Below, piece by piece: positions 12,104-22,944 of a DNA stretch of 54,625 nt. The notes below the pieces were generated by a model. The model ran no database searches, had not been told where the DNA came from, and saw only the letters and a list, made by a program, of their open reading frames with translations. The DNA comes from Methanobacteriota archaeon (GTDB lineage: Archaea > Thermoplasmatota > Poseidoniia > Poseidoniales > Poseidoniaceae): positions 1-54,625 of the forward strand of contig WTJK01000083.1 of the NCBI GenBank assembly GCA_011524855.1, written 5' to 3'. Within the stretch, counting starts at the first letter, position 1, and every line of letters begins with the position of its first letter. Both the position numbers and the translations under genes were made by a program.

Positions 12104-13306
12104 ATGCATTTGAAAGACCTGAATCAACAACTCGAAGCCCATCGAACCGAAATCACCTCATGGATGGCGGCAAAAAGGTCCGAGGTCTCGATCCCCATTT
12201 ACGGAAGCGTGGATGTCCGAGATGCCGGCTGGAAGGTGGGCGTGGTCGATGCGAACCATTTCCCTGCAGGTTTCAACAACGTGGCAGAATCTCAACAAGA
12301 AGAACTTTCCAACCTCCTCAAGGATCACCTGCAACGAGCCCACCCCGACGTCGCATGGGTTCATGTTTATCCCGAGAGCCACACACGCAACCCCGCGTAT
12401 GTCGAAAACATTGCGTCCATTCAACGGATGATTGAACGAGCAGGTTACCGCTGCACCGTGGGTTCCCCCGAATTGGAAGAATTCAAGACCCTCAACGGGA
12501 CCAGTGGCCCCCTCAACCTCGTGCCGACGCAAGTTGACGGAGAGAACCGGCTTGTCGTTGATGGCCAAGAGCCCGATTTGATCCTGCTCAACAACGACCT
12601 CACCGACGGCAACATTCCAGGAATTGCCTCGCCCAACGTCACGCCACCACCCCACATGGGTTGGTTCCGGCGGAGGAAATCCCAACATTACGAGGCGTTG
12701 CGACCGTACGTCAACGAAGTGGCTGAGTTGCTGAACCTTGACCCATGGCACCTGATGCCGGATTGGTTTGTCTCCGAGGACAAGTGCCTGACGGAGGACG
12801 CATGTAAACAACGACTCGCAGAAGAAATCGATGACTTCCTCGGCCGCCTGAAAACCAAGTACGCTGAACTCGGTATCGACCGCCAACCCAGCGTGGTGAT
12901 GAAGAACGACAGCGGAACCTACGGCCTTGGCGTGATGGTCTTGACCTCAGGCGATCAAATCCTCAACCTCTCAAACCGCAAAGCGAACCGGTTGCGCTAC
13001 GCCAAAGGCGGTGCTTCGGTTGAAAATTACTTGATTCAGGAAGGCATCCCAACGGCGCTCCAAACCGAAGCAGGCGAAGCCCTCGAACCGGTGGTCTACC
13101 TGGTGGACGGTGAAGCAGCCTCCTGGTTTTACCGAATCAACGCCAAAAAGTCCGACATGGACAACCTCAACTCCCCCAGCGCTCGTTTTGAGAATTACGC
13201 CGATACCGCCAACCCCTACGCCACGGAAGCCCACGGCTGGCACGCGCTGGTCGCCGAACTGAGCATGCTGGCGATGGGGAAAGAAGCCGAGCGTTATGCT
13301 GTTTGA
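12104..13306 (+). CDS. gshA: Glutamate-cysteine ligase-like enzyme (GshA, ferrooxidans type)
   Basis: A 400-residue protein resembling the GshA family first described in acidithiobacilli and related proteobacteria. The segments PIYGSVDVRDAGWKVGVVD and NHFPAGFNN (residues 31-59), VMKNDSGTYGLGVM (about 265-278) and a C-terminal ATP-grasp-like half support this. The expected reaction is ATP-dependent gamma-glutamyl-cysteine formation. No glutathione synthetase gene follows, so the end product could be gamma-glutamylcysteine or another thiol. It starts one base after the asnB stop and must be cotranscribed with it. The family match is from remembered motifs. Confidence 0.72.
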   Translation: MHLKDLNQQLEAHRTEITSWMAAKRSEVSIPIYGSVDVRDAGWKVGVVDANHFPAGFNNVAESQQEELSNLLKDHLQRAHPDVAWVHVYPESHTRNPAYVENIASIQRMIERAGYRCTVGSPELEEFKTLNGTSGPLNLVPTQVDGENRLVVDGQEPDLILLNNDLTDGNIPGIASPNVTPPPHMGWFRRRKSQHYEALRPYVNEVAELLNLDPWHLMPDWFVSEDKCLTEDACKQRLAEEIDDFLGRLKTKYAELGIDRQPSVVMKNDSGTYGLGVMVLTSGDQILNLSNRKANRLRYAKGGASVENYLIQEGIPTALQTEAGEALEPVVYLVDGEAASWFYRINAKKSDMDNLNSPSARFENYADTANPYATEAHGWHALVAELSMLAMGKEAERYAV

Positions 13307-13467: not shown

Positions 13468-14151
13468 ATGTCCATGAAGGGCAAAGCGTGGTGGTACGTG
13501 CTCACCATCGCCGTTGGCCTGTGGGTTTCCGCCACAGGAGCCAACGGCATCTTGCCCGATCGTTGGGCTGAATGGCCGGTGAACGTTTGGTGCTGGGGCC
13601 TGTTTCTTGCCTTGTATGCGAAGGCTGACCGAAAAGAGCGCATTGAAATGATCACCGTGATCGCCTTCGCCACGCCGATGGAACTGTTCTTCTCTGAGGT
13701 CTGGAAGGTGTACGAGTATCAACGCGGATTGATGCCCTTGTTCGTACCTGTCGGCCATTACTTTCTGTTCGATTTGGGCCGCATTTGGGCTGAGCGCATC
13801 CAGGAGGCGTGGGCCATGCCGCTGTTGATGCCGTTTGTTCCTGTCGTCGGCTACGGTGTGTGGACGGGCGGTGACACGTCCGGGGTCTTGCTGCTGGCTT
13901 TGGTGGTGCTTTTCACACGGTTTGGCCCCCAACCTCGTTTGTACGCTGCGATGGTGTGGGCGGCCCTGGCCATGGAAATCGTTGGCACGCAACTCGGCAA
14001 CTGGACCTGGGCGACCGAGGTGCCGTGGACACCGTTCACCGCATGGAATCCTCCGCTGCTGGTGGGTGCCTTCTACTGTTTAGGTGACCTGTTGGTGAAC
14101 CTCAGCGTTGCTAAGTTTGAAGGGGAACCTCCCGAGGAGGTCACTGCATGA
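13468..14151 (+). CDS. Multi-spanning membrane protein, unknown
   Basis: A 227-residue protein with six or seven hydrophobic segments. Conserved-looking polar residues sit inside or beside them: MELFFSEVWKVYEYQ (about 71-85), LFVPVGHYFLFDLGR (about 91-105) and GTQLGNWTW with WNPPLLVG and YCLGD near the C-terminus. Polar clusters like this suggest a membrane enzyme or a transporter, but I do not recognise the family. Its stop overlaps the start of the ferredoxin-like gene (ATGA), so it is the first gene of a three-gene unit. Starts at 13468 and 13474 are both possible. The 161 bases upstream hold only a short GGCAG-gac-CTGCC hairpin. Confidence 0.75.
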   Translation: MSMKGKAWWYVLTIAVGLWVSATGANGILPDRWAEWPVNVWCWGLFLALYAKADRKERIEMITVIAFATPMELFFSEVWKVYEYQRGLMPLFVPVGHYFLFDLGRIWAERIQEAWAMPLLMPFVPVVGYGVWTGGDTSGVLLLALVVLFTRFGPQPRLYAAMVWAALAMEIVGTQLGNWTWATEVPWTPFTAWNPPLLVGAFYCLGDLLVNLSVAKFEGEPPEEVTA

Positions 14152-14480
14152 CAGGGGCCGATGAACTGCGCCGGCGCCGTCAGAACGAAGCCGTTCGTAT
14201 CCGCACGGCGCTCAACCGGCAACGGGGTGAGCAGCGTGCCAACACCAAGGGCGGTGAGGGAACAGTGGCTTTTGTGGAGGAGCGAAAGTGCATCGGCTGC
14301 GACCAGTGCACCATCGTCTGCGATGACGATGCCATTGAACTCTACCACGTGGCCATGAAGAGCCCGCTCATGTCGGTGGAAAGCAACCGAAAAGCAAGGG
14401 TGCTGAGGGACCCGTGCACCGGGTGCCGTCTCTGCGTGCTTGCGTGTCCCACCGACGCGATTACCATGATCGATCGATGA
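14148..14480 (+). CDS. Ferredoxin-like 2[4Fe-4S] protein
   Basis: A 110-residue protein. Residues 1-40 are basic and probably helical. The C-terminal part has two cluster motifs: Cys48-x2-Cys51-x2-Cys54-x3-Cys58 and Cys90-x2-Cys93-x2-Cys96-x3-Cys100-Pro. The first lacks the usual Pro after its last Cys (it reads CDDDAI), and the two motifs are 31 residues apart rather than close together. It is likely a cytoplasmic electron carrier. It lies between two membrane-protein genes, overlapping the first by 4 bases. The convergent bc-type operon just beyond encodes a cytoplasmic iron-sulfur module it might serve; that link is speculation. Confidence 0.88.
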   Translation: MTGADELRRRRQNEAVRIRTALNRQRGEQRANTKGGEGTVAFVEERKCIGCDQCTIVCDDDAIELYHVAMKSPLMSVESNRKARVLRDPCTGCRLCVLACPTDAITMIDR

Positions 14481-14501: not shown

Positions 14502-14792
14502 ATGGCCAAGAAAGGAAAAGACCCCACTGCACAACGGTTTGGAGGCGAATTTGGCCCGTACCGTAAACCTGGAACCGCCGGCGTAAGCTTGTCGACGTTC
14601 AAGACCCTCGTTTGGGTCTCCAACCTTGGGGGGTTGCTGCTGGTGGCCCTGGCCCTCGAACTGATGTTCGTGGCTCAGAACTTTGCATGGGGTTTGTTAG
14701 CGCTCGTTCTTGGGGTCGCTGTGGGGTTGTTTCCCTCCAACTACGAAATTGTCGGAATGGAAGAGGATGACGACGGAACATCCAACACCTGA
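14502..14792 (+). CDS. Small two-span membrane protein, unknown
   Basis: A 96-residue protein with a basic soluble N-terminus (MAKKGKDPTAQRFGGEFGPYRKPG), two adjacent hydrophobic segments (about 34-57 and 60-78) separated by a short Asn/Phe turn, and an acidic tail. A clear GGGAGGAGG precedes the ATG at 14502. It follows the ferredoxin-like gene by 21 bases and ends 4 bases before the end of the convergent methyltransferase-like gene. No family is recognised. Confidence 0.75.
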   Translation: MAKKGKDPTAQRFGGEFGPYRKPGTAGVSLSTFKTLVWVSNLGGLLLVALALELMFVAQNFAWGLLALVLGVAVGLFPSNYEIVGMEEDDDGTSNT

Positions 14793-15620: not shown

Positions 15621-18437
15621 TCAGGCTTCTGCGGTTTGACCGGTCTGAACTTCGCCACCAACGAGCGCTTTCTTCTCGTTGACTTGGCGGGCCAGGAAGG
15701 ACACCACGTCCAAGATTTCGATGTCCTGGTAGGCTTCGTCACCTTCGAACTTCAGGCACTCAAAGTGCGACACACACTTCGGGCAAGAGGTCAGCATGGT
15801 CTCAGCACCGGTGGCCCGCACTTCTTCCATGCGAGTCACACGCAGCGAGCGTGCGTTCTCGTTGCACGACATCATGCTCGACACACCGCAACACATGGCG
15901 TCTTCGCCGTGGTGCTCCATCTCAACGAGTTCAACGCCCTCCACCGAGGTGATGAGGTCACGGGGTTCATCGTAAACACCCATCTGTCGGCCGAGTCGAC
16001 ATGGATCGTGGAAGGTCACGGTCGTGTCCTCTGCTTTGAGGTTCATGTCGAAGCCTTGCTCGAGCAGGAACTCCGTGGTGTGCATGACCTTGACGTCTTC
16101 CAATTCGTAGTCACGGGCAAAGGTACGGAAACATTCGGCGCAAGAGGAGACCAGCGTGTCAATGCCAGAATCGTTGATCTTCCGTTGGTTGTAGGCCTTG
16201 AGCTTCTCAAAGACTTCATCCAAGCCCTGCCACTTCTGGTCGTGGCCGCAGCACTTCAAGAAGTCACGGCCGAGGTAGGCCACGTCGGTGCCCATCTCTT
16301 CGAACAGCGTGAAGGCAGCCGTGGTGGTATCCCCGAGGTTCATGGTGCCCTCGTTGACGTGCGAGAAAACCATTTCTTGGTCGAGGTAGTCAACACAACC
16401 GGGGTAGTAACCCACGTTGGAGGTGATGGGGTAGTCCTCAACGGCGATGAAGTCCTCATCAGCGGCTTCGTCGGCTTCAGCGTTCAACACGGCTTGGAGC
16501 ACCGTGTGGGGGATTTCTGCCTGTGGGCCGCCAACGATCAGGCTGCGACGAATGTCGACGTACGAGTCGTAGTCCACAAGTTGGGGGCAAGCGTTGGTAC
16601 AAGCCGAACAGGTGAGACAGGAGTACAACGGTACACCGTCGTCTTCGTTGTTCCACGAGTTGTAGATGATGTTGAGTTTGTCACCGCCGTTGAACAGACG
16701 AACGGGACAAGCATCATCACACAGGTCGCAACCGTAACACTTGTTCATCTCAAACTCGTATCCACGGGCCATGTACCGCAGCAACACGAAGACAAGGGCT
16801 CCAAAGGTCACGGATGGGATGAACATCGCATACGTGAGTTTGGCGTCCAACGACTTGGGGTTCTGGTGATAGCTGGGGTTCTCGATGACGCTGAAGGACG
16901 TACCGCCCAACGCCATCTCGTCGACGTTGGAGAGGTTCACCGTGTGGCCGGCAAGGGCCTCAGGAGCGTCGTCGTTCCAAATCAGCAAGGGCTGGTAGGA
17001 TGCCACCGTGAACGAAGTTTCTGTGCTGATGGTGTTGTTCTCAGCGAGGGCACCGCTCACGACCACCTCGTAGGTGTAATCGTAGGTACCGACGGCAAGT
17101 TCGGTCGTGTCACCAGCGCAGTTCTCAAACGAGCTGACAACGTTCCCGTTGGCATCGGTCACGGTGAGGGTGGTCGCGACCATGGTCTGTGTGTTGATGC
17201 CGTCGATCTTGCGCTCGCTTGATCGGTATTCACAACCCAAATCCGTGGTGATACCATCGTTGGTCACCTCTTCTGGGTGGCCTTCTGGGAAGTGGGTGGT
17301 GTCCTCGGTCACCGTGAATTGACCGGCCGTCGTCCAGCCAGCACCGCCGAAGAACGTGTTCGTCCCGTGGGCTCCGTTCACACCGTTTTCGAGGTCTTGA
17401 TGGCCGTTGGCATCGCTGAAATCCGTGATGATGTAGCGGGCAGGCTGGTAGATGTTCCAATCCAACCAGGCGGCCGTGGGAACGACGCCGGACTCGGACC
17501 AGCCTCGGTCGTCGGTGAATTCGTTCACATCGTGAACATGAACATCGCTGGGTTGCGTTCGCATGGCTTCGAGTTCACCGTAATCCTTGATCGTGAGCAG
17601 ACCTTTGGCGCCCCAGAACCCTTTGTCGTAGGTATCGAAGGTGGCGACGGTCGCAGCCGAGGAGATGATGAGGGCACCAACGAGCAGTTGACGGCTCTTG
17701 GCCACCGTGAAACCAGCACCCAAGGCTTTCACCAAGAGGATTCGACCCACGAAATAGACCACGATCCACATCAGAACGCCTGTCATGACCCACGGTATGG
17801 AATTGAACACGTCCGCAATCCACGGGTCTCGTGTTCCGCACAACAGGTCGCCGTGCGAGTCCAACTTACAGAAATCGGACCGGTTTTTGCCGTACAGTTC
17901 AAGGAAAATGTTGATGGAAAACACCGAGATGAACCAGATGTGAGCGAGGTAGACCGCACCAGCAGCAGCGAACCAGGGGTCTTCCACCGGTCGCTTCTCC
18001 CGTCCACCAAGGAAGGGTGGAAGAGCGAGGATGCCCACAGGGATACCGGTCAGGGCTGCACCCCACCACGCTGCGTTCCATGGGAACACCGGTTGGCCAA
18101 CGATGTCACCAATGAAGCCGGTGGGAACCACAAACTGAGGAAGGTATTCACCCCAGCGAAGGTAGCCGTACGAAAACAGCACGTACCAGTCGGGGAACAC
18201 GAACCCTGCTTGTGCGTAGGGGTCAGCAGCACCGTGCAACGGTGGTGGAATCAACCATGCGTAGAACAGAAGGATGGAGATCATCGAGGCAAAGATGATG
18301 GTGTCACGAAGCACCTCGTGCGGCCAAAAACCATGACCTGTTCGGGTGCGCTTTCGCTTTTCCTCCGCTTTCTGCAGTTGTTCTTTTTCCTCCATGTACA
18401 TGGAGGCAACTCGGCCAAAATTGTCAATCAGTCCCAT
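15621..18437 (-). CDS. Cytochrome b C-terminal half fused to HdrD-like iron-sulfur reductase
   Basis: A 938-residue fusion. Residues 45-63 begin a subunit-IV-like membrane part with the quinol-site motif PDWY (82-85); further spans lie near 123-145, 153-182, 211-238 and 250-268. Residues 270-530 form a large Asn/Thr-rich domain of unknown type. A sixth span (534-556) precedes the iron-sulfur module: C567/570/573/577, C607/610/613/617, then two CCG-type repeats (C681, CCG 729-731, C766/C769; C813, CCG 849-851, C885/C888). This order matches HdrD/GlpC/LutA-like subunits that reduce disulfides or oxidise organic acids. Six spans put the middle domain outside and the clusters in the cytoplasm. 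A GGAGGG precedes ATG 18437. Confidence 0.88.
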   Translation of the reverse strand: MGLIDNFGRVASMYMEEKEQLQKAEEKRKRTRTGHGFWPHEVLRDTIIFASMISILLFYAWLIPPPLHGAADPYAQAGFVFPDWYVLFSYGYLRWGEYLPQFVVPTGFIGDIVGQPVFPWNAAWWGAALTGIPVGILALPPFLGGREKRPVEDPWFAAAGAVYLAHIWFISVFSINIFLELYGKNRSDFCKLDSHGDLLCGTRDPWIADVFNSIPWVMTGVLMWIVVYFVGRILLVKALGAGFTVAKSRQLLVGALIISSAATVATFDTYDKGFWGAKGLLTIKDYGELEAMRTQPSDVHVHDVNEFTDDRGWSESGVVPTAAWLDWNIYQPARYIITDFSDANGHQDLENGVNGAHGTNTFFGGAGWTTAGQFTVTEDTTHFPEGHPEEVTNDGITTDLGCEYRSSERKIDGINTQTMVATTLTVTDANGNVVSSFENCAGDTTELAVGTYDYTYEVVVSGALAENNTISTETSFTVASYQPLLIWNDDAPEALAGHTVNLSNVDEMALGGTSFSVIENPSYHQNPKSLDAKLTYAMFIPSVTFGALVFVLLRYMARGYEFEMNKCYGCDLCDDACPVRLFNGGDKLNIIYNSWNNEDDGVPLYSCLTCSACTNACPQLVDYDSYVDIRRSLIVGGPQAEIPHTVLQAVLNAEADEAADEDFIAVEDYPITSNVGYYPGCVDYLDQEMVFSHVNEGTMNLGDTTTAAFTLFEEMGTDVAYLGRDFLKCCGHDQKWQGLDEVFEKLKAYNQRKINDSGIDTLVSSCAECFRTFARDYELEDVKVMHTTEFLLEQGFDMNLKAEDTTVTFHDPCRLGRQMGVYDEPRDLITSVEGVELVEMEHHGEDAMCCGVSSMMSCNENARSLRVTRMEEVRATGAETMLTSCPKCVSHFECLKFEGDEAYQDIEILDVVSFLARQVNEKKALVGGEVQTGQTAEA

Positions 18438-18453
18438 GATTTACCCTCCTCGA

Positions 18454-19320
18454 TCAATGCGGCTCCGCGATGCCTTGCACCCACACGATAAACAAGTGAA
18501 TGATGATGAGCGTCGTCACGATGACGGGCAAAATGAACACGTGGATGAAGTACATGCGTGTGACCGTCAGCGGTGTCAACTCCGATCCTGCAAAGAGCAA
18601 CGTGGCCACGTATTTGCCGACCAAGGGGCTCGAGTTCGCCAGGTTGATGCCGATGATGGCTGCACCGTAGGCGAGGCTGTCCCATGGCAGCAGGTAACCC
18701 GAGTAACCAAACACGATGGTCAAGGCCATCAGGGCCACACCGATGAGCCAGTTCAACTCACGGGGGTTGCGGTATGCACCGGTGAAGTACACACGGCACA
18801 TGTGCAAGAACACGCTGGCGACCATGAAGTGCGTCGTCCAATGGTGAACAGCTCGCAAGATGTAGCCAAACGGCAACTGCGTCATGATGTACTCCATGCT
18901 GGCGTAGGCTGGAGAAGGGTCGCCTTCCCCGCCGGGAACGTAGTAAATCCCCAGCACGGTTCCGGTGATCACGAGGATGATGAACGACAAAAAGGAGATG
19001 CCACCCAAACAGTACAACGGGTACCAGTACCAGATGATTCGAAGTTTGTATTTCTCAGCGTGAGTCAGCGGCATTTGACGGTGCATGTTGTAGTAAGCAC
19101 CTTTGGACATGTTCCAGTAATCTTGCAGGCGGAAACGGGTGTCCAGCCAAGAAAAGACCCAGAGGAACGACCGTTCGGCCACCCCCATTTTGCCAGAGGA
19201 TTCGACGGCGCGCAAAATGTCACGCCGGGGCATTTCTTCGCTTTCTTTGCGCAGCGTAAACGCCACCAAAACAACGAGGAAGACGATGAAGAACCAAAGC
19301 ACCCAGAACATTGTCGTCAT
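18454..19320 (-). CDS. Cytochrome b (b6-like N-terminal half)
   Basis: A 288-residue di-haem cytochrome b. Haem ligands are predicted as His159 and His173 in the VHHW...FLH helix (14 apart, as in b6) and His260 and His275 in the FIHV...IIHLF helix. VYFTGAYRNPRELNW and the GYLLPWDSLAYG loop are family hallmarks. Unlike plastid b6 it has an extra N-terminal hydrophobic segment (4-23) and a roughly 80-residue cytoplasmic stretch before the four core spans. With the fusion protein encoded 16 bases downstream it makes the complete quinol-oxidising b unit. A GAGGTGATC lies just before ATG 19320, and the gene sits 9 bases after the Rieske gene. Confidence 0.93.
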   Translation of the reverse strand: MTTMFWVLWFFIVFLVVLVAFTLRKESEEMPRRDILRAVESSGKMGVAERSFLWVFSWLDTRFRLQDYWNMSKGAYYNMHRQMPLTHAEKYKLRIIWYWYPLYCLGGISFLSFIILVITGTVLGIYYVPGGEGDPSPAYASMEYIMTQLPFGYILRAVHHWTTHFMVASVFLHMCRVYFTGAYRNPRELNWLIGVALMALTIVFGYSGYLLPWDSLAYGAAIIGINLANSSPLVGKYVATLLFAGSELTPLTVTRMYFIHVFILPVIVTTLIIIHLFIVWVQGIAEPH

Positions 19321-19329
19321 ACGATCACC

Positions 19330-20175
19330 TCAGTCACAGAACGTGTACCAATCCACGTAGTCGGTCAAGCCCTCAATGGTGTCTCCGTTGAGTTGGATGG
19401 GGATGATGGGCAAGCCCACAGGAGCTGGCCCGCCAGCACGGCGGATGCCGGCGTACTTGAACGTGGCACCGGTGGACCGGTTCCGGTTGGAGTTCATCTC
19501 AAGCACCGTGGGGTCGAACCGGGAAGAATGGCAAATACAGAACAGCTTGGTGCCGCCGTCGTCACCGCCCCCGGGTGTCCACGAGTCTTCGGTGAATGAA
19601 TTTGAGACGAGTTGCCAACCGGGAATGCAACACAAGTGCGTGCAGCGGCCGAACACCATGACGAGGTCATCGCTGGGCATCAGGCGGGGGTCGGCCTCCG
19701 CCAAGTCTTCGAAATGGCCAACGTACTTGCCCGTCTCGTCGTACCCCTCCGTGAATTGGAAACGGGCTTTTCCGTTGTTTTCAGGCGTGCCGGCGTTGCG
19801 GCTGTGCTCGACGTACATCACGACGACAGGAACACCGTTCCAAACACCCGATGCGCCGGCCGTCCCGGTGCTCGAGTTGGCTGCTTCGGCGACGAAATCC
19901 GATTTGGTCATGGGTTGAAGGTGCTTGGCACCGTACCAGGCTTCGTCTTCACGACCCTTGGCCCAGAAATTGACCGCAAGGTCCCCACCACCACCACCAC
20001 CGGGTGGCAAGAGGATGGCGGCAAAGCCCAACATGCCCAGCGAGGCCGTGAGCACACCGGCAGCGGTGTTGAAGCCGTAGCGAAGGAATTGGCGTCGGTT
20101 GATGGTGGTGTTCATCCCTGGGGCGTCCCCTTCGTCGAGGCCGGGTGCTGGTTTGAGTTCGAATTCGCGTGCCAT
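19330..20175 (-). CDS. Rieske iron-sulfur protein of bc-type complex
   Basis: A 281-residue Rieske protein. NRRQFLRYG (26-34) followed by a hydrophobic segment (36-57) is a Tat-type anchor, so the cluster domain is exported folded. Cluster ligands are Cys178 and His180 in CTHLCC and Cys213 and His216 in CICHSS; Cys183 and Cys215 would form the family disulfide. The usual Gly of CTHLGC is Cys182, an odd extra thiol. A Gly/Asp-rich insertion lies between the two boxes. It passes electrons from quinol to an external acceptor. The ATG 20175 follows GGTGAT; ATG 20181, overlapping the previous stop, is equally possible. Confidence 0.93.
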   Translation of the reverse strand: MAREFELKPAPGLDEGDAPGMNTTINRRQFLRYGFNTAAGVLTASLGMLGFAAILLPPGGGGGGDLAVNFWAKGREDEAWYGAKHLQPMTKSDFVAEAANSSTGTAGASGVWNGVPVVVMYVEHSRNAGTPENNGKARFQFTEGYDETGKYVGHFEDLAEADPRLMPSDDLVMVFGRCTHLCCIPGWQLVSNSFTEDSWTPGGGDDGGTKLFCICHSSRFDPTVLEMNSNRNRSTGATFKYAGIRRAGGPAPVGLPIIPIQLNGDTIEGLTDYVDWYTFCD

Positions 20176-20180
20176 GACCA

Positions 20181-20624
20181 TCACCACTTGTATTCGCGCC
20201 AGTCTTTCTGGTGTTCAGGAATGAATTTGTTCTGAGCGTGTTTCACGATGATCGTGTCGGGAAGGATGTATTTCAGGTAGATGACACCAACCATGATGAG
20301 GGTGGTGAACGTCATGGCCAGGTGGAACGACAGTTGCTGTTGATCCCATTTCTTGGCCAGACCGTACACCATGGAGAAACTCCAGTAGCAGATCCAGAAG
20401 AGGCCCCAGACGAGGAAGAACATGGCGAGGTACGAGCCGCCCGAGGGCGCAAGCGAAGCGGAGACGATGGTACCCGGTTCGGCAACGTTGAACACACCGT
20501 GGTCGATGGCATCCGACATTTGGTCTTCCGTCAACTCAGCACCCTCAAGCGCGGAGCGAGCATCTTCCACACTGACCGACCCGTCGGCCACCTTTCGCAG
20601 CAGTTTGGATACCGTGTCGTCCAT
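20181..20624 (-). CDS. Small membrane subunit of the bc-type operon, unknown
   Basis: A 147-residue protein. Residues 1-55 are soluble and helical (VSKLLRKVADGSVSVEDARSAL and a second similar stretch), followed by two membrane segments (about 66-88 and 101-122) and a basic tail ending EHQKDWREYKW. The ATG at 20624 overlaps the stop of the upstream gene (TGATG), and its own stop overlaps the region of the Rieske start. It is therefore very probably a structural or assembly subunit of the same complex. No family is recognised. Confidence 0.8.
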   Translation of the reverse strand: MDDTVSKLLRKVADGSVSVEDARSALEGAELTEDQMSDAIDHGVFNVAEPGTIVSASLAPSGGSYLAMFFLVWGLFWICYWSFSMVYGLAKKWDQQQLSFHLAMTFTTLIMVGVIYLKYILPDTIIVKHAQNKFIPEHQKDWREYKW

Positions 20625-21469
20625 CACTGATCACCTCGACGCATGAGTTTGTACCGGAGGCGAAGTTGGTTGCTTCGACCCTTGTAGGAGGTGGAAAAGC
20701 CGTACCGCAGGAGCAGCCCGGCAAAGGCAACGACGCCGAGCACGGCACCGAAGCCAAGCAACCCAAGCCAGTGAGCACGAAGTTTGGCGCCCATGTGGTG
20801 GAGGTCAACACCGTGGTGGTCAGGTTCAGGAGGTGCCACTTCGCCATCACCTGCGAAAAGGGTCCGGGTCCCCATGGCGGCCGAGGTTTCATCGCCTTCG
20901 TTGAGACCGAAGTTGAGTTGGTTCCAGCGGTCTTCAACACCGGGCACTTGGTCCCCGTTCACCGAATTGCCGACGATGTAGAAGTACGCCACACCCTCAC
21001 CTGCATCGGCAGGTGCGGTCCAAACGAAATCCCATGCACGGTCCGAGGTGGCCGAGGAGGCTTCGGTGTGGGTCAAGGCCTGAAGGTCAACTGCACCATC
21101 AATCTCCGGGTTCTGGGCCATGTCGCTGGACAATTCGCCCAGCGTCACACGCATGGAGAAGCCAGCGGTGTACGTGCCGGTGGCGGGAGGTCCGCCGATG
21201 AGTTGAAGACGGAGGTCGTAGGTTTGGCCGGGCTCGTAAGCATAGGGGGCGTGGTCGACGACGACTTGAACCGAGTTGTCTGCCACTTCGTTGTGGCACA
21301 GGCAACCGGATTTGGCCACATCGTCGATCTCCACCGTGCCCGTGGAGCCCTGATGCGTGTGGGAACCGGCGATGCCTCCGTGATAGGATGATGCCAGCGT
21401 GGGGAAGAGGAGCAGCAGACCCACCAAGGTCAACAACCCAATTCGCGATGTTTGAGTGGTCTTGAGCAT
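20624..21469 (-). CDS. Exported reeler-like protein with CLCH motif, bc-type operon
   Basis: A 281-residue exported, C-terminally anchored protein. A signal peptide (about 1-28, ending LASSYH) is followed by a His-rich stretch and Cys56-Leu-Cys58-His59. A beta-rich domain follows, with YEPGQTYDLRLQL and YTAGFSMRV, as in reeler/choice-of-anchor-V domains. A membrane span lies near 231-256 with a basic tail. Choice-of-anchor-V proteins often carry a CxxCH haem c site in this place; here one residue is missing (CxCH), so haem attachment is uncertain. ATG 21469 follows GGTGAGG and opens the operon. It may be the extracytoplasmic electron acceptor or a structural subunit. Confidence 0.75.
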   Translation of the reverse strand: MLKTTQTSRIGLLTLVGLLLLFPTLASSYHGGIAGSHTHQGSTGTVEIDDVAKSGCLCHNEVADNSVQVVVDHAPYAYEPGQTYDLRLQLIGGPPATGTYTAGFSMRVTLGELSSDMAQNPEIDGAVDLQALTHTEASSATSDRAWDFVWTAPADAGEGVAYFYIVGNSVNGDQVPGVEDRWNQLNFGLNEGDETSAAMGTRTLFAGDGEVAPPEPDHHGVDLHHMGAKLRAHWLGLLGFGAVLGVVAFAGLLLRYGFSTSYKGRSNQLRLRYKLMRRGDQ

Positions 21470-21497
21470 GGCCTCACCCTCTGCTCTTTCCGACTTG

Positions 21498-21554
21498 GGT
21501 GGACTCCTTAAACATTGCCAGCAAAACAGCCGCAAATCTGCGGCGCAGTCCACC
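21498..21554 (-). promoter_or_regulatory. bc-operon promoter with nested inverted repeats
   Basis: Bases 21498-21505 (GGTGGACT) and 21547-21554 (AGTCCACC) are perfect inverted copies. Inside them, 21529-21534 (GCCGCA) and 21539-21544 (TGCGGC) form another perfect repeat with a 4-base gap. On the minus strand a TTTAA element near 21509-21513 lies about 42 bases before the start codon, which would put transcription near 21485 with a short leader. Regulator binding is inferred. Confidence 0.4.
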
Positions 21555-21648
21555 GTTTTTTTGTGACTTTCCTCGGCCAACACGTATCATTCAAGCCACC
21601 CGTGGCGGCAGGGTTTTTTAGGGCCGGAGACAGGGGCGATTGATTGTT

Positions 21649-21948
21649 ATGACCAACCATGCTTTCGAGAACACCTATGGCCTCACCAACGAGCAACTTG
21701 AGCGCCTGGATGAAGCCGAGGACCTGATGCTCAAGGGCGCACTTGGCCGAGCAGAGACGATGTTGCTCGAGATGCTCGAGGCCGATCCTGAATGCATCCC
21801 CGTCTTGTCCAACCTTGGCCACTTGTACGGCCGATACCTGTCCGAGTTTGAAAACGCTGTGAACTATTACAACAAGGTGCTCGAGCTTGAGCCGGACAAC
21901 GCATGGGCACGCGATGCTCGTCGGCGTTACCTCCGATACGTGGAATGA
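21649..21948 (+). CDS. Small TPR protein
   Basis: A 99-residue helical protein with two to three tetratricopeptide-like units: LKGALGRAETMLLEMLEADPECIPVL, then NLGHLYGRY...FENAVNYYNKVLELEPDNAWA (quoted in parts). It is probably a cytoplasmic protein-interaction scaffold; the partner is unknown. The start is ATG 21649 rather than the in-frame TTG at 21640. A T-rich ggttttttag at about 21613-21621 could be its TATA region, giving a nearly leaderless mRNA. It is divergent from the bc-type operon. Confidence 0.8.
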   Translation: MTNHAFENTYGLTNEQLERLDEAEDLMLKGALGRAETMLLEMLEADPECIPVLSNLGHLYGRYLSEFENAVNYYNKVLELEPDNAWARDARRRYLRYVE

Positions 21949-22029: not shown

Positions 22030-22944
22030 ATGGACCCTGCCACCATCCTCATCGCAGGTGTCGGCGGTTTGGGTTGTGCATGGGCCAAACAAGCACACGA
22101 GCGGTCAGGCCGTGGAGTCCATCTGGCCCTCATCGATGCCGATGAACGGAGTTTTGCGACCGGGGAGGGGATCCACGTCCTACGACTTGGCCACACCCTC
22201 GACAAGGTCGGGTGTGCAGCCTTGCCACCGCTGGCTGAACAGCGCATGCGAGGACTGTCATCCCTGACAGCCAACGTTCTGGAGCCCACCGAGCTGGTGG
22301 TGTTGCTCACGGCATTGGGCGGCGGGTGTGGAACCGGAGCCGCTCAAGAATTTGCTCGACAAGCCCGTCAGCGCGGTGCCATTGTTTTGGCCGTTGCAGC
22401 CTTGCCTTTCGAAGCACAACACACCCGGCTGGCCATCGCTGAAGCCGGTCTAGCACGGCTCGAAGCAATGGCCCACATCACGGTCCGGCTCTCCCTCGAT
22501 CGATTGGCCCGACAAGCCCGTGACCGGGGCCAACAGTGGCACATGGGATCGGAGTGGATCGAAGATTTGGTCGACGGTCTCGTTCGCACCTTGATGCGCA
22601 TGGGACTCATCAACCTGGATCTGATGGACTTGAGGGCCGTTGTTGACCAAGACGGCGAAGCAACCATGCTCGTTGGCGTCGGTCGTCCCGACGACCCTCG
22701 CAGCATTCTCGAATCCGCACTCAAAGCACCCCTTGCCGCCATGGACGTGGGTGGCGCCACCGGATGCCTGATTCAAGTGGAAGGTGGCCCGGGCATGACC
22801 ATCGGCCAGGTGGACGCCGTGGCCTCCCTGTTCACCAGTGCACTGGATGATGGCGCCCATGTCATCCTCGGCGCACGTGTCAGCGAGGACCTTGATGACA
22901 GCATCCGTGTGGTGACCTTGCTGTCCGGCATTCGACCGGATTAA
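22030..22944 (+). CDS. Divergent FtsZ/tubulin-family GTPase
   Basis: A 304-residue protein with the FtsZ/tubulin layout. The N-terminal nucleotide loop is GVGGLGCAW (10-18), and the signature loop is GGGCGTGAA (95-103) where FtsZ has GGGTGTG. LPFEAQHTRLAIAEAGLARL corresponds to the FtsZ KPF...R...A..G...L stretch. The catalytic T7 loop is LINLDLMDLR (191-200) with Asp195 and Asp198 kept. The C-domain ends with VTLLSGI. Because the T7 acids are present, GTP hydrolysis on assembly is plausible. It lacks the C-terminal tail that binds FtsZ partners and is diverged, so it may be a paralogue rather than the division FtsZ. It converges with the next gene, overlapping by 4 bases. Confidence 0.78.
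   Translation: MDPATILIAGVGGLGCAWAKQAHERSGRGVHLALIDADERSFATGEGIHVLRLGHTLDKVGCAALPPLAEQRMRGLSSLTANVLEPTELVVLLTALGGGCGTGAAQEFARQARQRGAIVLAVAALPFEAQHTRLAIAEAGLARLEAMAHITVRLSLDRLARQARDRGQQWHMGSEWIEDLVDGLVRTLMRMGLINLDLMDLRAVVDQDGEATMLVGVGRPDDPRSILESALKAPLAAMDVGGATGCLIQVEGGPGMTIGQVDAVASLFTSALDDGAHVILGARVSEDLDDSIRVVTLLSGIRPD

Follow-up and report, generated by a model that had tools for sequence, protein, structure and literature searches.

Several described systems share parts with the complex encoded by the Poseidoniales (Marine Group II, MGII) that is the subject of this analysis. The cytochrome b6f complex has a cytochrome b that is split into cytochrome b6 and subunit IV, a Rieske protein and a cysteine for haem ci, and these elements recur in the Poseidoniales complex. 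The latter differs from b6f by the lack of a cytochrome f gene in its operon and by its putative iron–sulfur input, which is covalently attached. Whether photosynthetic b6f has a ferredoxin–quinone reductase activity is a matter of debate. HdrD/HdrE and HdrABC contain HdrC and HdrB domains with Hdr-type cysteines, as does the Poseidoniales protein, and one family of relatives (f25) even has an HdrA-MvhD-like partner. However, the membrane partner of HdrD is HdrE, whereas the Poseidoniales module is joined to a cytochrome b6/subunit IV complex with a Rieske protein; moreover, the N-terminal CCG site is broken in relatives from family f3. Mycobacterial EtfD (PDB 9ojn) likewise combines an HdrC–HdrB-type cluster chain and a quinone-reducing membrane part in one protein (PMC13083937). 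EtfD has a five-span haem b domain at its N terminus and accepts electrons from the electron-transferring flavoprotein (ETF), whereas the Poseidoniales protein starts with cytochrome b subunit IV, is part of a Rieske complex and has Hdr-type ligands. In the ligand pattern of EtfD, a capping histidine (CPHC) is present and cluster D1 has lost its second cysteine (PMC13083937).

MGII archaea have been reported to encode cytochrome b and a Rieske protein, with no canonical bc1 complex, as well as a lone RnfB, with no membrane Rnf subunits (Tully, 2019; PMC6336850). The cluster part of RnfB from the Rnf complex resembles the ferredoxin that neighbors the gene described below, whereas RnfACDEG are reported to be absent in MGII (PMC6336850). 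An arrangement shared with the Poseidoniales, i.e., hdrD-like and rnfB-like genes beside a complex III-like cytochrome b locus, is known from the Angelarchaeales, for which one sentence suggests that electrons enter from ferredoxin (Diamond et al., 2022; PMC9038741). The part of that account that deals with the locus is about nearby genes, and mentions neither a subunit IV fusion nor a haem-ci cysteine, nor any fusion to ferredoxin or flavodoxin. In a search of open-licence papers, neither the fusion nor the carrier fusions reported here were found to have been described. The ferredoxin idea was anticipated by the Angelarchaeales sentence.

The Fusion Gene and Its Operon

The window, i.e., the whole stretch of 54,625 nucleotides that was analyzed, contains the features listed in Table 1. 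A sequence-only reading of this DNA had claimed a single frame of 938 codons, which is indeed present without interruption. The same reading had recognized a subunit IV part with PDWY, a middle domain, a sixth span and an HdrD-type module, had placed the middle domain outside and the clusters in the cytoplasm, and had stated that no standard bc complex is built in this way. The anatomy is upheld by Pfam, profile comparison and hydropathy, the topology agrees with hydropathy and charge, and the statement on bc complexes stands.

Table 1. Features of the fusion gene and its surroundings, in positions of the window.
Feature	Position	Strand	Evidence
Glutamate-cysteine ligase GshA, a frequent neighbor, not an obligatory part	12104..13306	+	PF08886 E 5.5e-99
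RnfB-like dicluster ferredoxin, proposed electron donor to HdrC	14148..14480	+	Fer4_21 E 3.1e-14; rnfB model
Two-span membrane protein paired with the ferredoxin	14502..14792	+	Conserved pair
Fusion gene, 938 aa: subunit IV, beta-sandwich, HdrC, HdrB	15621..18437	-	Intact frame, Pfam, profile match; conserved across the order
HdrB-like part, two CCG domains, residues 676-892	15762..16412	-	PF02754; Foldseek to HdrB and EtfD
HdrC-like dicluster domain, residues 560-625: CYGCDLCDDACP and CLTCSACTNACP	16563..16760	-	PF13183/PF13187
Sixth span, residues 534-552	16782..16838	-	Hydropathy
Fifth span, residues 251-269, followed by the extracytoplasmic beta-sandwich domain, residues 270-533	16839..17687	-	Hydropathy, structure model
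Cytochrome b C-terminal half/subunit IV-like part, residues 1-240	17718..18437	-	Profile match to cytochrome b and petD chains; hydropathy
Cytochrome b6-type subunit with the two haem histidine pairs and Cys104, equivalent to the haem-ci cysteine	18454..19320	-	PF00033 E 4.1e-40; alignment to b6
Rieske protein, CTHLCC ... CICH	19330..20187	-	TIGR01416 E 3e-10
Small two-span subunit, weakly DUF7318-like	20181..20627	-	PF24002 E 3.1e-4, under the curated cut-off; operon place conserved
Choice-of-anchor V protein, GC-x-CH motif	20624..21583	-	NF041895 E 5.7e-25; operon place conserved

Pfam gives no PF00032 score on the fusion protein of the window itself. A profile made from its subunit IV-like domain and unfused relatives matches solved cytochrome b C-terminal halves (E 1.9e-9) as well as b6f subunit IV (E 2.2e-6), and a relative lacking the Hdr module does match PF00032 (E 1.5e-9). 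According to hydropathy, the subunit IV-like part has four spans, with the invariant PDWY at residues 82–85, and the whole protein has five spans ahead of the middle domain and one behind it. The middle loop is acidic (11 K+R vs. 40 D+E), and hydropathy and charge together place this domain and the PDWY loop outside and the iron–sulfur part at the cytoplasmic side. In structure prediction, the middle domain is modeled as a beta-sandwich with a local pLDDT of approximately 80–90; the full-length model has a mean pLDDT of 53, and its poorly modeled membrane part is not trustworthy. Behind the sixth span, a short tether leads to the first cluster cysteine at residue 567. The two 4Fe-4S motifs are located within residues 563–619 (PF13183, E 2.9e-7), and the two C-terminal CCG domains are matched by PF02754 (E 6.5e-23). 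With two 4Fe-4S motifs and two complete CCG domains, the window protein has the complement that is expected for a heterodisulfide reductase.

The fusion is encoded last in its operon, preceded by the genes for the choice-of-anchor V protein, the small membrane subunit, the Rieske protein, in which both cluster boxes are present, and cytochrome b6. The true start of the choice-of-anchor V gene is probably located downstream, near 21469. No cytochrome f (or c1) gene is seen in the operon, and the choice-of-anchor V protein has GC-x-CH, not CxxCH. This motif may form an unusual site for haem or metal at the outer face. The comparison of the conserved motif covered L122, L123, L135 and L141; in its place, the protein of L135 has a haem c-like CTSCH, and that of L141 retains only ATCH. 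Besides the operon, a divergent FtsZ/tubulin-like protein (22030-22944, +) is encoded beside a TPR protein (21640-21948, +), and the synteny of this pair with the operon is conserved.

Conservation and Relatives in Thermoplasmatota

Relatives of the fusion are encoded in 305 stretches of public genomes, from which 80 were kept; their titles are those of Poseidoniaceae, Poseidoniales or Euryarchaeota assemblies, some of them single-cell. Among the sampled genomes, matches are found in 57 of the 58 genomes of the family and in all 79 of the order, the great majority showing the whole architecture in one frame. In a few genomes, the match consists just of fragments at the ends of contigs, of interrupted frames, or of a second HdrD-like protein alone. 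The genome assembly of the window is fragmented (83 contigs), which speaks for an assembly or binning join of two genes. The identical single frame, however, recurs across the two Poseidoniales families that were sampled, also in G011, whose genome is a single contig, and in single-cell genomes. Such a join is rejected, its probability being negligible, and the refutation envisaged in the sequence-only reading, in which the two halves would be separate genes in all close relatives, fails, as they are fused throughout these two families. Outside the phylum, one search of plasmids yielded matches that cover at most about half of the query, with approximately 23–25% identity, in the HdrD-like part.

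In other Thermoplasmatota, the module is arranged differently. The sister family f3, which belongs to the same class and is probably Marine Group III, has subunit IV–HdrC as one gene and HdrB as the next. In another class, families f22 (L120) and f25 (L121) have subunit IV–HdrC–HdrB. The beta-sandwich is absent from the relatives in all three families. In seven additional families (f4, f15, f21, f23, f31, f32, and f39), the operon encodes a subunit IV without an Hdr module; directly beside these plain operons, neither HdrC-B nor the ferredoxin is seen. A cytochrome b tree groups MGII, f3 and f22 (87/89) and does not settle the placement of f25. The tree needs two changes for the fusion, which may thus have originated more than once, and the fusion of f25 may be separate in origin. 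Other extracytoplasmic domains occur on the complex of relatives, i.e., a laminin-G-like domain on subunit IV (L134 5994-7733) and, on cytochrome b, an N-terminal Ig-like Big_5 domain (L120 8086-9975, L121 986-3613, L124 1420-4644).

Cofactor Ligands

Alignment with b6 shows that both histidine pairs of cytochrome b are kept, and Cys104 aligns on Cys35 of b6, the haem-ci cysteine; a covalent haem ci is thus a prediction from sequence. This cysteine is present in 119 cytochromes b and missing from most relatives without the arm, i.e., the HdrC–HdrB module. One or two events underlie the correlation between cysteine and arm. The residue is a serine in the arm-bearing genus g24, and L135, which is unfused, has the cysteine; a strict link between the haem-ci cysteine and the arm is weakened by both cases.

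All 126 HdrC-type ORFs that were scanned, two HdrD-only ORFs among them, have intact HdrC motifs, and the C-terminal CCG site is likewise intact wherever a copy is of sufficient length. Of 116 Poseidoniales copies, 115 have an intact N-terminal CCG site, the exception having lost a cysteine; in f3, this site is broken in each of the six copies, in one of two distinct manners. The fusion has the ligands CAEC and CCG, and the capping histidine of EtfD is missing. A second HdrD-type membrane protein is encoded in the genome of the window (L003 616-2709; G000:C57) and recurs in the family. This protein has the EtfD ligand pattern, with CSG and CPHC.

Linked Redox Partners and Metabolic Context

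Among the features of these loci, the partner gene is the most informative. Whenever the complex bears HdrC-B, it is accompanied by a linked low-potential redox protein of the cytoplasm. Of 79 Poseidoniales genomes, 77 encode the RnfB-like ferredoxin, whose gene usually adjoins the fusion, in either orientation; in the single-contig genome G011 it is located approximately 15 kb from the fusion, next to gshA. In f3, the RnfB-like dicluster protein is continuous with a soluble archaeal ferredoxin (match to Sulfolobus ferredoxin, E 1.1e-27); in two f3 genomes from a single genus, it is a flavodoxin (PF00258, E 6e-27) to which this dicluster is fused. Ferredoxin and flavodoxin are the classical interchangeable low-potential carriers, and their separate fusion to one dicluster protein points to the low-potential carrier pool as the electron source. 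In genus g24, the dicluster gene occurs with either a flavodoxin or a soluble-ferredoxin domain (L128 5946-6935, L147 5004-5993, L123 6666-7505). The partner in f22 is a longer polyferredoxin. In f25, an HdrA-like gene follows the subunit IV–HdrC–HdrB gene (NCBIfam; L125 757-2292, L121 5435-6379), and judging by its sequence it appears to have an MvhD-like end in L125. In the Poseidoniales operons, no HdrE or HdrA partner is seen.

The metabolic context was checked in ten genomes. All ten encode the 49-kDa subunit of complex I, 2-oxoacid:ferredoxin oxidoreductase (POR_N) and ETF alpha. NuoF was not found in seven of the ten, including the single-contig G011, although draft genomes can be incomplete. 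Since NuoF was not found, ferredoxin may be a main low-potential donor. The GshA encoded near the fusion is of the ferrooxidans type. It was found in all f1 genomes listed and not found in many f2 genomes, and this distribution suggests a patchy thiol system within the order.

Proposed Function and Alternative Readings

With moderate confidence, we propose that the protein is the subunit IV half of a b6f-type Rieske/cytochrome b complex, and that its HdrC–HdrB arm serves as an input from ferredoxin or flavodoxin to quinone. The input arm is inferred from the linked partners, the haem-ci cysteine and the fact that NuoF was not found. In the proposed route, 2-oxoacid:ferredoxin oxidoreductases would reduce ferredoxin or flavodoxin, from which electrons would pass to the linked RnfB-like dicluster protein and onward to the HdrC/HdrB clusters of the arm. 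These clusters would presumably deliver them at the inner face, to haem ci/haem bn and the quinone at the Qn site. The quinol would then be oxidized at the outer PDWY/Rieske site, towards an oxidase. The order and direction of these steps are likewise our proposal; the direction is chosen because ferredoxin has a potential near -450 mV and menaquinone one near -80 mV. The CCG clusters would act as carriers, not as catalysts, and the loss of N-terminal CCG cysteines in f3 favors such a wire over a two-cluster catalyst. More doubtful, although possible, is the specific version in which ferredoxin or flavodoxin input is wired covalently at haem ci and the Qn quinone is reduced by two electrons, of which the carrier supplies one and the Q-cycle the other.

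As best explanation, the input arm is supported by the retention of the ferredoxin even where its orientation is flipped, and by the plain subunit IV operons, which are without both HdrC-B and the ferredoxin. The best fold match counts for it as well, as EtfD, the nearest solved case of a cluster chain of this kind on a quinone-reducing haem protein, wires a cytoplasmic donor to quinone via HdrBC-type clusters and haem b. So does the ferredoxin entry that was proposed for the similar Angelarchaeales locus (Diamond et al., 2022). Counting against it are the serine in g24, the cysteine in L135, the distant ferredoxin in G011 and the presence of ETF in all ten genomes checked. In addition, both CCG sites have stayed intact in most Poseidoniales copies, which is what one would expect of a disulfide reductase. 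Such an enzyme, the second option of the sequence-only reading, would be fed from quinol, with the low-potential electron from quinol bifurcation at the outer site passing via haems bp and bn to HdrC and reducing a cytoplasmic disulfide at the HdrB clusters. Besides the Hdr-type cysteine sets at both sites and the missing capping histidine, the glutamate-cysteine ligase gene that lies nearby in many genomes agrees with this. However, electrons would have to go against the membrane potential, the N-terminal CCG site is broken throughout the f3 copies, and the ferredoxin and flavodoxin fusions are left unexplained. Moreover, GshA was not found in 28 of the 79 order genomes that keep the system, because of which gamma-glutamylcysteine disulfide is rejected as an obligatory substrate. 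Altogether, we regard a disulfide reductase as unlikely.

A similarly low probability is given to an ETF:quinone oxidoreductase, in which the arm would take its electrons from ETF like mycobacterial EtfD. EtfD (9ojn) is the best match in both sequence and fold (Foldseek), and the genomes do encode ETF alpha. On the other hand, the genome of the window already has a separate EtfD-type protein with the CSG and CPHC ligands where the fusion has CCG and CAEC, and no ETF gene is seen among the linked genes. Quite improbable is a dehydrogenase arm that passes electrons from a thiol or an organic acid (lactate, glycolate, or glycerol-3-phosphate type) to quinone, as GlpC, GlcF, and LdhH do. The C-terminal part has NCBIfam matches to TfrB, LdhH, GlpC, and GlcF, but all of them are far under the cut-offs, no matching flavin dehydrogenase gene is seen beside the fusion, and the partners are ferredoxin or flavodoxin domains. 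From the function suggested in the sequence-only reading, the feeding of electrons into quinone is retained, whereas a thiol, lactate or glycolate donor or a disulfide acceptor finds little support, in view of the neighborhood, in which no flavin dehydrogenase gene is seen, the genomes in which GshA was not found, the CCG loss in f3 and in one Poseidoniales copy, and the ferredoxin, flavodoxin or HdrA-MvhD-like nature of the partners.

Implications

MGII archaea rank with the most common archaeal groups in surface waters of the ocean. Should the arm function in the proposed way, they would have an entrance for ferredoxin electrons to the respiratory chain besides complex I, which would fit the missing NuoF. 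In the more doubtful version with input at haem ci, the complex would be a dedicated aerobic counterpart of the ferredoxin–quinone reductase activity that has long been debated for photosynthetic b6f. A working arm would also offer a natural fused system for asking whether a b6f-type complex takes ferredoxin electrons via haem ci, a point of debate in cyclic electron flow.
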